Below, in pieces: positions 12,846 through 18,637 of a stretch of DNA of 61,591 bases. The translations under genes and the position numbers were made by a program. Each line of letters opens with the position of its first letter. The first letter of the stretch is position 1. The stretch comes from an uncultured Spirochaetia bacterium (GTDB lineage Bacteria; Spirochaetota; Spirochaetia; Sphaerochaetales; Sphaerochaetaceae): the NCBI GenBank assembly GCA_905236385.1, contig CAJOOY010000030.1, positions 1-61,591 of the forward strand, in the 5' to 3' direction. The notes beneath the pieces are model-generated. The model was not told the origin of the DNA. It did not search any database and saw only the letters and a list, made by a program, of their open reading frames with translations.

Positions 12846-12932
12846 GGAAAGTATTATAGCATTGTTTGTTGTAATTATCCTTTTATTCAACTATCATATA
12901 GCGAAAAACATGATGTGACCGGGAGGCCTGAG

Positions 12933-15584
12933 ATGAAGGCTATTGAGCTTGAAAAAGTATACGATCCTAAGAATTTTGAAGACAGAATTTACGAGAATTG
13001 GGTAGATTCCGGAGATTTCCGTCCATCTAAGGCAAAAGGTGAGCCGTTTACAATTGTCATGCCACCACCAAATGTTACAGGAATACTCCACATGGGACAT
13101 GCTCTTAATAACTCACTGCAGGATATTTTGACCAGGTACTACAGAATGGGCGGACGCCCGACTCTCTGGGTTCCGGGAACGGACCATGCAGGAATTGCCA
13201 CACAGAATATTGTTGAAAGACAGCTTGCAAAAGAAGGCTTGAGAAGACAGGATCTCGGACGTGAGAAGTTCCTTGAAAGGACGTGGCAGGTCAAGGATAA
13301 ACATCATGATATTATTGTCAAGCAGCTTAAGAAGATAGGCTGCTCCTGCGACTGGGACCATGAGCGTTTTACAATGGACGAGGGCCTTTCAAAGGCTGTC
13401 AGAGAGACTTTTGTCACTCTCTACGAGCGTGGTCTTGTCTACAAGGGAATGTATCTGGTCAATTACTGTCCTCATTGTGGAACAGCACTTGCAGATGATG
13501 AAGTTGAGCACCAGAATGATAAGGGACATTTGTGGAATATTGAGTATCCTCTTGCTGATGGAAGCGGCAGAATTACTGTTGCCACAACAAGACCTGAGAC
13601 CATGTTCGGAGATGTGGCTGTTGCTGTAAACCCGGAAGATGAAAGATACAAGCATCTTATTGGTAAAATGCTTAAGCTGCCTCTCACAGACCGTGAGATT
13701 CCTGTTATTGCTGACAGCTTTGTCGGAATAGAGTTCGGTACCGGTATGGTTAAGATTACTCCGGCCCATGATCCTAACGACTGGGAGTGCGGAAAGAGAC
13801 ATAATCTTACTCCGATAAATATTCTCAATCCTGATGGAACTCTTAATGACGTATGTCCTGAGAAGTTCAGAAATATTCCGGCAGAAAAGGCCAGATTCAT
13901 GGTTGCTGATGAGCTGGCAGCTCAGGGATACCTTGCTTCTGTTGCTGATTATGACCATGAAGTTGGTCACTGCTACAGATGTAATACAACAGTTGAGCCA
14001 TACATGAGCGAACAGTGGTTCGTAAAAATGAGGCCTCTTGCTGACAAAGCACTTCAGGCATGGAAGGACGGAAGGCTTGAGTTCCATCCCAAGAGATGGG
14101 AAAACACTTACAGTTCCTGGCTTGAGAATATCAGAGATTGGTGTATAAGCCGTCAGCTCTGGTGGGGCCACAGAATTCCTGTGTGGTATTGTAGCGACTG
14201 TTCTAACATGATGGTCAAGCGTGAGGATCCATGCTGCTGTGATAAGTGTGGTAGCAAGAATATTAAACAGGATAATGACGTTCTTGATACATGGTTCAGC
14301 TCCTGGCTTTGGCCGTTCTCAACTCTTGGTTGGCCTGAGAAAACTCCTGATTTACAGAAGTTCTTCCCGACAAGCACTCTTGTTACAGCTTATGACATAA
14401 TCTTTTTCTGGGTTTCCAGAATGATTATGGCTTCACTTGAGTTTACAGGAGAAGTTCCCTTTAAGGATATCTATATTACAGGTCTTGTAAGGGACAAACT
14501 GGGCCGAAAGATGTCCAAGAGTCTTGGAAACGGAATAGATCCGCTTGAGGTTGTTGATCTTTACGGCGCAGATGCCATGAAGTTCACTCTATGCTATCTT
14601 GCAGCCCAGGGACAGGATGTCTTGATTGATATGGATTCCTTCAAGATGGGTTCTAAATTTGCTAACAAGATTTGGAACGCCACTAGATACATTCTCATGA
14701 ACCTTGAGGACAGAAATATTGTAGAAATCAAAGAAGAAGACCTTAATGATGTTGATAAGTGGATTTACCACTCATTCAATGAGAACGCCAGAAAGGTGAA
14801 TGCTGCTCTTCAGGGTTATAGATTCAATGAAGGCGCTCAGGCAGTTTATGACTTCTTCTGGAATGATTTCTGTGACTGGTACATAGAGGCTTCTAAGCCT
14901 GAACTTTACAGCGATGATGATAAGCGTAAGGATAGAATTGTTTCTATTCTTCTTGACCTTTTGGCCCGTTCAATGAGGCTTATGCATCCATTCCTCTCCT
15001 TTATTACGGAGGAAATATATGATAAGTTACCTAATACGGATGGAAAGGTTATTAGTGCTGAATTCCCTGTTTTTGATGAAAAACTTGTTCATGAAAAGGA
15101 AGCTTCTCTTGTTGAAAGTCTTCAGGAAGCAGTCAGAGGAATAAGGAATGCTAAGGCTCAGCTTTGTATCCCACCAGATAGAAAACTTAATGTTACTATT
15201 AGAACTGATGAAAAAGGTGAGCTTTCTGCATTTATGAGAAAGTATGCTTCTTTAATTTGCACTTTCAGCAACAGTGCTTCTGTCACCATTGATGATGACA
15301 AGTCTTCAGATATTTCCGGAGCCTTCCCTGTTGCTGCTCCTGGCTTTGAATCCTACCTGTTTGTCAGGGAAGCTATAGATGTGGAAAAAGAGATTTCCAG
15401 ACTGAAGAGTGAGATTGAGAAGACTCAGGCTCTTCTTGATGGAGTTGATAAGAAGCTTAATAATCCAAACTTTATTAACAATGCTAAAGCTGAGGCTATA
15501 GAGAAAGAAAAAGGCAAGAGAGCTGAGTTTGTTGAGAAGATAGATAAGGCTCAGAAGCATATGGAAGCTTTAAAGAAACTCTAA
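12933..15584 (+). CDS. valS: Valine--tRNA ligase
   Basis: Class I synthetase charging tRNA-Val, about 883 residues. The HIGH motif is PPPNVTGILHMGHALN, the KMSKS loop is GRKMSKSLGNGIDP, the editing domain that hydrolyses Thr-tRNA-Val includes TTRPETMFGDVAVAVNP, and two cysteine pairs (YCSDCSNMM and CCDKCGSKN) form a zinc ribbon. The C-terminal 65 residues are a lysine-glutamate coiled coil typical of ValRS that contacts tRNA. The frame opens at GTG 12915, but ATG 12933 with GGGAGG upstream is the proper start. A terminator hairpin follows. Confidence 0.97.
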   Translation: MKAIELEKVYDPKNFEDRIYENWVDSGDFRPSKAKGEPFTIVMPPPNVTGILHMGHALNNSLQDILTRYYRMGGRPTLWVPGTDHAGIATQNIVERQLAKEGLRRQDLGREKFLERTWQVKDKHHDIIVKQLKKIGCSCDWDHERFTMDEGLSKAVRETFVTLYERGLVYKGMYLVNYCPHCGTALADDEVEHQNDKGHLWNIEYPLADGSGRITVATTRPETMFGDVAVAVNPEDERYKHLIGKMLKLPLTDREIPVIADSFVGIEFGTGMVKITPAHDPNDWECGKRHNLTPINILNPDGTLNDVCPEKFRNIPAEKARFMVADELAAQGYLASVADYDHEVGHCYRCNTTVEPYMSEQWFVKMRPLADKALQAWKDGRLEFHPKRWENTYSSWLENIRDWCISRQLWWGHRIPVWYCSDCSNMMVKREDPCCCDKCGSKNIKQDNDVLDTWFSSWLWPFSTLGWPEKTPDLQKFFPTSTLVTAYDIIFFWVSRMIMASLEFTGEVPFKDIYITGLVRDKLGRKMSKSLGNGIDPLEVVDLYGADAMKFTLCYLAAQGQDVLIDMDSFKMGSKFANKIWNATRYILMNLEDRNIVEIKEEDLNDVDKWIYHSFNENARKVNAALQGYRFNEGAQAVYDFFWNDFCDWYIEASKPELYSDDDKRKDRIVSILLDLLARSMRLMHPFLSFITEEIYDKLPNTDGKVISAEFPVFDEKLVHEKEASLVESLQEAVRGIRNAKAQLCIPPDRKLNVTIRTDEKGELSAFMRKYASLICTFSNSASVTIDDDKSSDISGAFPVAAPGFESYLFVREAIDVEKEISRLKSEIEKTQALLDGVDKKLNNPNFINNAKAEAIEKEKGKRAEFVEKIDKAQKHMEALKKL

Positions 15585-15611: not shown

Positions 15612-15645
15612 GCCTGCATTTTTGAAAAGTGCAGGCTATTTCTTT
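15612..15645 (+). terminator. Rho-independent terminator after valS
   Basis: Perfect seven-base arms GCCTGCA and TGCAGGC, extended by A-T pairs, followed by TATTTCTTT. Confidence 0.75.
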
Positions 15646-15671
15646 AATATTTGATTTCTATAAATTTTTAT

Positions 15672-15690
15672 ATAATAACTATATTATTAT
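15672..15690 (+). repeat. 19-bp A/T dyad upstream of parA, copy 1
   Basis: ATAATAACTATATTATTAT, an inverted repeat of ATAATA/TATTAT around a 7-base centre. A second copy with one mismatch lies at 17857-17875. Its location in the parA leader suits an autoregulatory operator or a partition site; this is inference. Confidence 0.55.
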
Positions 15691-15754
15691 TTAATTTAAA
15701 CAGTAGGATATTGTATTTCTTTTCCATTAGGTATAAGATAAATTTTGTTGAATT

Positions 15755-16528
15755 ATGGCAAAGACTATATCTTTTCACCTTCAGAAAGGTGGTGTAGGTA
15801 AAACAACTATCTCAGGCACACTCGCGTGCCAATCAGCCCTGAACGGCTTTAAAACGCTCTTGATTGACGTTGATCCTCAGGGAAATGCCTCATCATGGTT
15901 TCTTAAGGAAGCTCCAAAATACGAGCTTGCAGATGTTCTTCAGGGCAAATGCTATATTAACGATGCTATTGTTTCTGTTCCATCCGTTGAAAATCTTTAT
16001 CTTCTCCCTACTTTCGGTATTGGTGGAAGCTTAAAGAACTATAGTGAAACCAAGCTTTCTGAGGAACCTTTTGTTCTTCAGGATTTAATTCATGAGCTTG
16101 ATAAAGACTTTGACCATATTGTTTTAGACCTTTCACCGGGACTTGGCAGACTTGAAAGAGCTGCTATAATAGCCAGTGATGAGGTAATAACTCCCATGAC
16201 TCCTGAAATATTCTCTCTTGACGGTCTTGAAATCTTCATTGATGAGCTTTCAAAGATCCGTAAGAATATGAGAAGTGGTGTCAAACATTCCAGAGTCATT
16301 ATTAATTCTTATGATGAAAGAATAAGGCAGCATAGAGAGATTTTCAGTGCTGCTTCTCATGGTAACTTTACTGTTTACAGGATTCCTGTGGATCCGGCCT
16401 TTAGAAAGGCTCAGGAACAGTCAAAAGCTCCCCAATTATATAAAGAGACATTTAAAAGTCTGAATAGAGGCTTAAAAGATAAAACTGTTAAGGCGCTTAA
16501 AGAGATTGATGATGAGATCTGGAGTTAA
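15755..16528 (+). CDS. ParA family partition ATPase
   Basis: 257 residues of the deviant Walker-A MinD/ParA class, with QKGGVGKTT at residues 9-17, VDPQGNASSW as the switch I/A' motif and LDLSPGLGRLE as Walker B. There is no N-terminal helix-turn-helix extension, so it is a chromosomal or type Ib-like short ParA. It most likely binds non-specific DNA as an ATP dimer and moves a partner-bound DNA site. The immediate downstream gene, three bases away, encodes a small putative DNA-binding partner rather than a normal ParB. No ribosome site is seen ahead of the ATG. Confidence 0.9.
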   Translation: MAKTISFHLQKGGVGKTTISGTLACQSALNGFKTLLIDVDPQGNASSWFLKEAPKYELADVLQGKCYINDAIVSVPSVENLYLLPTFGIGGSLKNYSETKLSEEPFVLQDLIHELDKDFDHIVLDLSPGLGRLERAAIIASDEVITPMTPEIFSLDGLEIFIDELSKIRKNMRSGVKHSRVIINSYDERIRQHREIFSAASHGNFTVYRIPVDPAFRKAQEQSKAPQLYKETFKSLNRGLKDKTVKALKEIDDEIWS

Positions 16529-16531
16529 AAA

Positions 16532-16768
16532 ATGGCACTGAAAAAGAACACTGAAGAGACTGTTGTAGAACAGATTGCTGAGTCTAAAGCCAAGCAATTG
16601 TTCAGTCAGGATACAGGAAGTAAGAAGGAAACTATGATTCTAACCACATTTTCAATTGCTCCTTCATTCAAGAAGGAACTTGAAGATATGTTTGCTGACA
16701 TGGGAATAGGTTGGGCAGCCGGAATCAGGTTTGCTCTTAAAGAATTCTATAAAAAACATAAGGAATAA
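16532..16768 (+). CDS. Small putative ribbon-helix-helix ParA partner
   Basis: 78-residue protein. A polar, flexible N-terminus (residues 1-35) is followed by TMILTTFSIAPSFKKELEDM and an alpha-helical end with GWAAGIRFALKEFYKKHKE, the strand-helix-helix layout of ribbon-helix-helix proteins such as ParG and omega that partner short ParA ATPases. The family assignment is by pattern, not by recognised homology. It starts three bases after parA stops and must be cotranscribed. A mobile N-tail is also how ParG-type proteins stimulate their ParA. Alternatives: a general regulator unrelated to segregation. Confidence 0.65.
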   Translation: MALKKNTEETVVEQIAESKAKQLFSQDTGSKKETMILTTFSIAPSFKKELEDMFADMGIGWAAGIRFALKEFYKKHKE

Positions 16769-16864
16769 TATACAATCCATATAAAACCAATATAAAGATG
16801 ATTCACGTTCGTGTTTACATGTTTTATATGGTTATATTATTCTTTAATCCTAGGTCACAGGATG

Positions 16865-16895
16865 AATCCTGCTCATTTGAGCAGGATTATTATTT
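16865..16895 (+). terminator. Terminator of the parA operon
   Basis: Ten-base perfect arms AATCCTGCTC and GAGCAGGATT with the loop ATTT, followed by a mostly T and A tail. It lies about 100 bases after the partner gene. Confidence 0.65.
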
Positions 16896-17600
16896 TATGG
16901 TTATGTTGTTCTAAACTTATATAGATAATATATTGAAATCTAGTGAAATACTTTAAAAGACATATTCTACTCATAGAGCACAAATATAATAATTATAATA
17001 AAACTCAATAGTTAACATATAACTACAATATAAATATTATTATATAGCAATTTAAAATTATATTGAAATAGTTATAAAACAGTTTGGAGTTATGTAAAAA
17101 TGATTCTGTTCCTATAATTTGATTTTGAATCACATATAATAACTTGTTGAAAAGATATTTAAATTATATAACTATTATATAAATTTATATTAAATAATAT
17201 TAAAACTATATTTTAACCAAATAAAAGCGTATAAAAATTGTTTAGAATCCATATAATCTAATATTAAATATATTTAAAATTTAATAGAATTATATTAATA
17301 CTATATGACTGTAATATAATATATATTTAAATAGAATGTTCAATGGTTGATTACGCTTTATGCCTGGAATTTTTAATACTGTGTCTATGAATGTTTGTAG
17401 ACTTTGGTTTATTTTGAATTAAAACATCTACAATTATATTTATATGGAGTGTCTGAAGCGGAGGATATTGTTTGCTGCACATATAATATGAATTCTATCT
17501 CAAGTAGTCTGGATCTTGATAGCTGAATGAATCTTATGTGATTTGAGCATCACCCAGAATATTTTAACAGAGCAAGCTGAGTCATACACAATGCACATCT

Positions 17601-17626
17601 ATGCAAACAGGAAGAACTGTTTGCAT
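17601..17626. repeat. 10-bp perfect inverted repeat
   Basis: ATGCAAACAG, spacer GAAGAA, CTGTTTGCAT. It sits in the less A+T-rich island of the non-coding region and has no T-run behind it, so it is not an evident terminator. It could be a protein site or part of a structured RNA. Confidence 0.6.
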
Positions 17627-17728
17627 CTACGTGTTTTAAATCTTTTGAAAATTGCATATCGCCTGTACAATCGGAAAGGCTGCATACAGACAGCGTTACA
17701 AGAAAGCTGTGTTATTTGCGGATTGCTC

Positions 17729-17760
17729 TCCGGTGCTTCTTCGGCGGAATATACACCGGA
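17729..17760. repeat. 7-bp perfect inverted repeat
   Basis: TCCGGTG and CACCGGA arms separated by 18 bases, G+C-rich against an A+T-rich background, about 100 bases after the larger hairpin. Confidence 0.45.
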
Positions 17761-17856
17761 ATTACTGGAATTATTATTTACTTTGATCATAATATTTTAG
17801 TTTATATAATATATCTATTAAACTTCCATCAAAAGCATATAATAATCATATTTAAC

Positions 17857-17875
17857 ATAATAACTATACTATTAT
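17857..17875 (+). repeat. 19-bp A/T dyad, copy 2
   Basis: ATAATAACTATACTATTAT, identical to the copy in front of parA except for one base at the centre-right position and in the same orientation. The pair brackets the parA cassette and most of the A+T-rich region. Confidence 0.5.
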
Positions 17876-18154
17876 AATAATATTATAATTGTATAATACA
17901 TGTTTATGTTAAATTATTCTTATTCAATAATTATAAGTTATCTATTATCTTTTTGTATTAGTTAAACAAAGAATGCTATTACTATTATTTGCTTTGAAAT
18001 CAAAATTATATAAGAAATATATAAAACCTTATTTATATTCATATATTTTAATAGTATTTCTTCTGTGATTATTGTAGATTTCTATGAAATGCCTCTGTTC
18101 TGATATTAGAACTAAAAGGAACTATATTGTTGTTGTATAGCAATAATATTACAA

Positions 18155-18637
18155 TTATACAGTTATGCTTTTAGTGAATATAGTGCTTAAACTTGAGCCT
18201 GTATACACAACAGTTGAGACTATAAGACCTGAAATCATTACTCCAAGAAGGATGAACAGGAATGATTTTCTTTTATTTAAGCCGAGGATCCATGCTCCAA
18301 GCGTGCCTGTCCATGCACCGGTTATTGGTAGAGGAATAGCCACAAAGACCAAAAGGCCTGCCATGCCGTATTTTTCAATCTTTTGACCAACTTTTTGCCT
18401 GGCTTTGTTAACTGTTTTGTCAAAAATTCTCTTGTATAAAGGAATTTTGTAGAAAAGTTTGTGAATTGTTTCCAGAAAAATGAAGAATACAGGTGCTACT
18501 AAGGTATTTATCAGGACACAAATAAGATAAGCCTGGAGTAGGGGAATTCCATTGAAGAATGCGTATGGAATTCCTCCTCTGAGTTCACTGATCGGAAGAA
18601 ATGAAAATAGGGCTGTTAAGGCGTATATTTTTGTCAT
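18155..18637 (-). CDS. Small multidrug export family protein (COG2426)
   Basis: 160-residue integral membrane protein beginning MTKIYALTALFSFLPISELRGGIPYAF, matching the Sm_multidrug_ex family: the N-terminal PISELRGGIP motif, a KYGMAGLLVFVAIPLPITGAWTG core (two adjacent pieces) and four to five hydrophobic segments. Transport function is assumed from the family name and is not well demonstrated. The frame continues upstream to 18673, but the ATG at 18637 overlaps the DUF362 stop as ATGA and is the coupled start. Last gene of a three-gene minus-strand operon. Confidence 0.82.
   Translation of the reverse strand: MTKIYALTALFSFLPISELRGGIPYAFFNGIPLLQAYLICVLINTLVAPVFFIFLETIHKLFYKIPLYKRIFDKTVNKARQKVGQKIEKYGMAGLLVFVAIPLPITGAWTGTLGAWILGLNKRKSFLFILLGVMISGLIVSTVVYTGSSLSTIFTKSITV

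Follow-up and report, generated by a model that had tools for sequence, protein, structure and literature searches.

A family-wide chromosomal ParA cassette with a ribbon-helix-helix-like partner, probably related to spirochaete plasmid partition loci

In the type Ib partition systems of plasmids TP228 (ParF-ParG-parH) and pSM19035 (delta-omega-parS), a short ParA is accompanied by a ribbon-helix-helix (RHH) partner with a flexible N-terminal tail and by iterated sites at the promoter (PMC7308502, PMC9499535). The tail of ParG serves its ParA partner (PMC7308502); the omega tail peptide stimulates weakly by itself, full activation requiring the array (PMC9499535). Archaeal SegAB joins a chromosomal ParA to an RHH protein with sites upstream, and SegB has been reported to be without sequence identity to bacterial proteins (PMC12284271). 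Bacterial chromosomal par operons, with their parS sites, have been described as lying within the origin domain (PMC7022226). On the spirochaete plasmid lp17 of Borreliella, deletion of bbd21-bbd22 has been reported to disturb copy number; a partition role for this pair is unproven, and no ParB is known (PMC9039534).

The locus described here lies in a window of 61,591 nucleotides, by which we mean the whole stretch of DNA analysed; it corresponds to contig C30 of a Sphaerochaetaceae MAG whose assembly comprises 92 contigs and 1.4 Mb. The first-pass annotation had recognized a short ParA followed three bases later by a 78-residue RHH-like protein and about 1.4 kb of A+T-rich DNA, situated between valS and housekeeping genes. 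The open reading frames, the Pfam match and an A+T content of 76% over 1,386 bp bear out this composition, and the neighbouring genes bear out the location. As anatomy, a chromosomally fixed ParA-RHH cassette with a type-Ib-like layout has good support. The upstream neighbour is valS (12915-15584); three bases separate the parA stop from the partner start, as read from the ORFs; and the first real gene after the pair is a minus-strand one starting at 18155. Between them is the 1,386-bp gap, in which we saw no convincing gene. Beyond the gap come genes for a PF06695 small multidrug-export-like membrane protein, a DUF362/ferredoxin protein and an RNA-methyltransferase-like product. In several relatives a gene for a Glu/Pro-rich, lipoprotein-like membrane protein is found between valS and parA (L049:4954-5916, L060:5068-5859, L042:4199-4975). 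The features of the locus are these:

15612..15636, plus strand: hairpin gcctgca...tgcaggc 3' of valS, read from the sequence; probable valS terminator
15637..15690, no strand assigned: upstream A+T-rich stretch whose TATW units are spaced 11 bp; candidate operator/centromere sites for the partner protein
15711..15739, plus strand: candidate parA promoter TTGTAT-17-TAAGAT, read from the upstream sequence
15755..16528, plus strand: parA-type ATPase ORF, 257 aa; Pfam AAA_31, E=1e-34
16532..16768, plus strand: small partner ORF, 78 aa; variable N-terminal tail, then RHH-like core
16769..16843, no strand assigned: downstream unit TATACAATCCATATAAAACCAATATA, with three TATA at 11 bp, then the oppositely oriented TTTTATATGGTTATATTA
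16913..17329, no strand assigned: A+T-rich DNA with phased TATA/TATW units, e.g. 17156-17181
about 17330..17790, no strand assigned: more G+C-rich island inside the gap
17791..18154, no strand assigned: second A+T-rich stretch, with phased units at 17870-17895 and 18007-18023

The translated ParA has its deviant Walker set intact: Walker A KGGVGKT with the signature lysine (K11), Walker A' DVDPQG and Walker B VLDLSPG. The AAA_31 domain begins at residue 3 and there is no N-terminal HTH extension; the protein is thus short, free of the N-terminal HTH regulator domain and complete in its Walker A, A' and B motifs, as type Ib ParAs are. It matches the ParA-like family phrog_164 (2.5e-44), and its relatives in the PDB are Soj and PF-32.

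The partner is harder to place. Its N-terminal tail is variable overall, with conserved motifs MALKKN and KAxxLF, and in the family alignment it is followed by a strongly conserved core, ILTTFSI and then two helices, in the pattern of an RHH protein. The CopG match is weak (E=0.89 for the single sequence, 0.08 for the profile), an Arc-like phage family gives 0.016, and the window protein reached no curated RHH family; a search for viral or phage relatives found none. In the predicted monomer, helices 44-56 and 61-77 are both of high confidence and overall confidence is moderate (pLDDT 70); the Foldseek list for this model consists mostly of RHH folds (NikA, MatP, CdbA, VapBC, Arc, ParD), with 0 significant. 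Pattern, weak matches and predicted fold are consistent, if weakly, with an RHH-like protein. A hint to the division of labour within it comes from genus g14 (G016, G032), in which the partner is present, the cassette ParA is absent, and ParB and parS are retained. Because this lineage, the one in which the joint loss is seen, has lost both the ParA and the MALKKN and KAxxLF parts of the tail yet has retained the RHH core, the conserved tail points to a putative ParA contact. The orphan partners of g14, a genus with reduced genomes, are at L071:8870-9076 and L073:8120-8314.

Of the 37 family genomes in the initial sample, 28 have the two genes adjacent, with ParA identities of 63-93%, and 30 have the partner. 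A wider draw of 119 family genomes contains the partner in 89 (in 62 of the 73 good ones), as a single copy except in one. Among 393 sampled genomes across the spirochaete phylum there was no convincing match to it outside the family. At the 11 loci where valS is still adjacent, ParA distances track those of valS (r=0.85; Mantel, 0/2000 permutations), and in comparisons of three congeners both genes are under strong purifying selection (dN/dS <0.1: 0.03-0.07 for ParA, 0.08-0.09 for the partner). The cassette is therefore an old, selected, chromosomal and vertically inherited gene pair, a trait of the family. The earlier suggestion that it is fixed inside the chromosome stands, and it is not peculiar to this genome. 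Recent plasmid integration is rejected, since the pair is family-wide, tracks valS and has conserved housekeeping genes as its checked neighbours. The pair is not essential, because some well-covered family genomes are without it.

An older link with plasmids is another matter. In our ParA tree, the cassette ParAs join the plasmid ParAs of Brachyspira and of Borreliella lp17 with support of 0.99, apart from the origin Soj proteins; Treponema plasmid ParAs come next, with weak support. The first-pass annotation had raised the idea of an ex-plasmid and proposed a database search. The ParA does group with spirochaete plasmid ParAs; the partner gave no significant family or fold match. A plasmid origin of the cassette is likely rather than proved, because the tree was built without chromosomal ParAs of other phyla.

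The cassette is not the partition system of the chromosome origin. A separate parAB/parS near oriC, which had been suggested as something to look for, is present on contig C22 of the same genome: a canonical ParA-ParB pair that has dnaA nearby and is accompanied by two exact parS sites. In complete relatives ParA-ParB and parS are likewise arranged near dnaA. The sole ParB found in this genome is the one on C22, the cassette having no ParB partner; no parS (TGTTTCACGTGAAACA) is found in the window, near the cassette, and the exact sites in the genome are confined to C22. With a canonical ParA-ParB pair and exact parS beside dnaA, the cassette is therefore a second ParA system, independent of the origin ParABS. 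To locate it further we used ATAATRTAYATTCTGTNAA, taken as dif, whose position agrees with the GC-skew switch in complete genomes; it is found in 66 of the 119 family genomes, single copy in all but one, which has two, at contig ends. In the genome of the window it is on another contig than the cassette:

G000:C6:39689-39707: probable family dif site ATAATRTAYATTCTGTNAA

In the 12 genomes, from five genera, with both on the same contig, 152-415 kb separate cassette and dif; in these mapped genomes the cassette lies terminus-side. The conservation of this distance was rejected as evidence of function: in a control, most shared genes retain theirs between genera. G009, with a genome of 1.2 Mb, keeps the cassette (G009:C30:21942-22940), and neither ParB nor parS was found in this 97%-complete MAG, in which their absence is likely, not certain.

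The first-pass annotation had compared the layout with that of type Ib systems, and besides the short ParA and RHH-like partner the comparison appears to extend to iterated A+T-rich candidate sites, in the form of an 11-bp phasing. TATA pairs at 11 bp number 10 in the window gap against 2.1 expected, a value reached in 0/300 order-2 Markov simulations. Pooled over 34 loci, there are 31 such pairs upstream against 10.2 expected and 31 downstream against 12.2 (each 0/300 simulations). Secondary peaks stand at lags of 22 and 33 bp. With one locus per genus, lag 11 remains top or second, and further correction for the lag scan puts the probability of chance at about 0.002-0.012 in the window gap, at 0.04-0.07 in the upstream DNA and at 0.09-0.16 in the downstream DNA. 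We take the phasing as real and its unit as very degenerate. The gap has no visible long repeat unit, and a de novo motif model, fitted by EM, settled on a generic periodicity of TATA. A strict three-unit pattern, searched genome-wide, occurred at the cassette site only in the genome of the window and 0 times in five relatives; the backward control matched more often, which makes this search uninformative. At the position of the candidate parA promoter, relatives have TTGTAC/T-17-TATACT.

The length of the downstream DNA is another question. The contigs of the two congeners stop 146-221 bp into similarly A+T-rich DNA, and one of these two shares the downstream unit (68 bp, 84%). Elsewhere among relatives the gap after the pair can be anything from a slight overlap to over 1.5 kb; in L051, L039 and L070 there is almost none. 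Many relatives have an alpha-glucosidase or helicase gene (names read from translations) after the pair; the gap as a remnant of the alpha-glucosidase gene was rejected, no trace of it being found there. Nor did the gap yield a structured RNA, or the island at 17330-17790 a match in Rfam, in plasmids or in relatives' downstream genes. The 1.4-kb block is not the conserved element. Its proposed role as an essential candidate centromere is weakened, because relatives keep both genes without long A+T-rich DNA; what survives of that proposal is the shorter phased array flanking the genes.

It could be argued that even this array has no role in partition: the A+T-rich DNA would be decaying intergenic sequence, and its 11-bp phasing a product of the helical-repeat bias often seen where bacterial DNA is A+T-rich. 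The highly variable length of the block, down to its near absence in the three loci just named, is as this would have it, and matched A+T-rich controls also show a lag-11 TATA excess. That excess is weaker, however (8 against 3.4 expected, with none for ATAT), whereas the cassette flanks carry about three times the expected pairs, the additional peaks at lags 22 and 33, and a TATA density about double that in the controls. We consider this explanation possible, though doubtful.

The reading we favour, with a probability of roughly 0.55, is that a chromosomally fixed ParA-RHH cassette, type-Ib-like in layout and sharing ancestry with the par cassettes of spirochaete plasmids, positions terminus-side DNA. 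The mechanism would most likely, at slightly better than even odds, consist of partner binding to the phased DNA and movement of the locus by ParA. RHH-like dimers would bind co-operatively to TATA-containing units about 11 bp apart, one helical turn, on the flanks of the operon; so bound, they would both repress the operon promoter and form the partition complex. The N-terminal tails of the partner, through MALKKN and KAxxLF, would touch ParA and stimulate its ATPase, and nucleoid-bound ParA-ATP would move or position the terminus-side locus separately from the oriC ParABS. What the comparisons show is the gene pair itself, its conservation, selection and vertical inheritance, its independence from ParABS, the phased sites in a statistical sense, and the disappearance of the tail along with ParA; DNA binding, ATPase stimulation, movement and cargo are inferred. 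The three readings offered at the outset (ex-plasmid, second segregation system, positioning system) are not mutually exclusive.

Rather less probable, in our judgement, is that ParA and partner position some other cargo, such as a protein assembly or the cell-division site, the partner being an adaptor and the phased DNA an autoregulatory operator only. Several protein cargos are positioned by ParA/MinD ATPases in one bacterium (PMC10241942), the cassette is away from oriC, and the candidate sites are directly at the promoter. Yet the invariant part of the partner is its RHH-like, putatively DNA-binding core, the plasmid relatives carry long, centromere-like tandem arrays, and relatives' loci have no conserved third gene beside the pair that would encode a cargo. 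The pair might also be a one-time plasmid par system that now serves chiefly as a regulator, in which the RHH protein would repress its own promoter, perhaps with others, and ParA would modulate this. Such a role would explain why the RHH protein persists in g14 although ParA is gone, and RHH partners such as ParG do double as transcriptional repressors (PMC7308502), but we think it improbable given that the divergence of ParA does not outpace that of valS, that ParA is constrained at least as strongly as the partner, and that loss of the tail is confined to the lineage that has lost ParA.

Returning to the positioning of terminus-side DNA by the cassette, a larger proposition, which we put forward tentatively, is that one bacterial chromosome could carry a pair of partition systems that differ in kind: the origin would be served by ParABS, and the terminus side by a ParA-RHH system that has a phased centromere of its own. 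In reduced G009 this second system is the sole one recognized. A plasmid-related ParA-RHH pair, under selection family-wide, coexisting with ParABS and well away from the origin, provides a natural case in which to ask what a second chromosomal ParA does.

Chromosomal ParABS (Soj/Spo0J/parS) shares the ParA family with the cassette and differs in having a ParB partner and a 16-bp parS at the origin. The TP228 and pSM19035 systems are alike in layout; unlike the cassette they are plasmid-borne and use other site units (7-bp heptads for omega), and we found no significant sequence similarity between their partners and that of the cassette. The partner on Treponema plasmid pTS2 does match an RHH family (1.3e-5). 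SegAB is like the cassette in being chromosomal and in having sites upstream, which in the cassette are candidates, and unlike it in that its palindromic 13-bp sites are scattered over the chromosome (PMC12284271). Among plasmids the best ParA match (41%) is on pBHWA1 of Brachyspira hyodysenteriae, where one base after the ParA there begins a protein of 78 aa, the same length as the window partner; against the cassette family profile it scores E=0.0011 in hhalign with a probability of only 20%, which is suggestive. This pair differs in being plasmid-borne and in having 22-bp repeats (TTTATAGTTTATTTTGTAACGT), in tandem upstream of the ParA (L078:2743-2813, 3.2 copies). The bbd21-bbd22 pair of lp17 (a PF32 ParA and a small ORF) belongs to the same ParA clade as the cassette. 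Its small ORF, overlapping or adjacent and of 78-90 aa, starts MPISK where the window partner starts MALKK, both lysine-bearing; homology between the two small proteins was not significant in profile comparison and is not claimed. Both loci have A+T-rich iterated DNA directly upstream of ParA, which on the linear plasmid, in contrast to the cassette, is a near-perfect 21-bp tandem array: in three Borreliella species it runs to 8.6 to 18.3 copies and stops about 12 bp short of the bbd21-type ParA start codon (L191:801-1185, L202:1078-1257, L203:926-1257). Array, bbd21-type ParA and small ORF together look like a complete par locus, and for the lp17 locus the comparison points to bbd22 as a candidate partner and to the 21-bp array as a candidate centromere.
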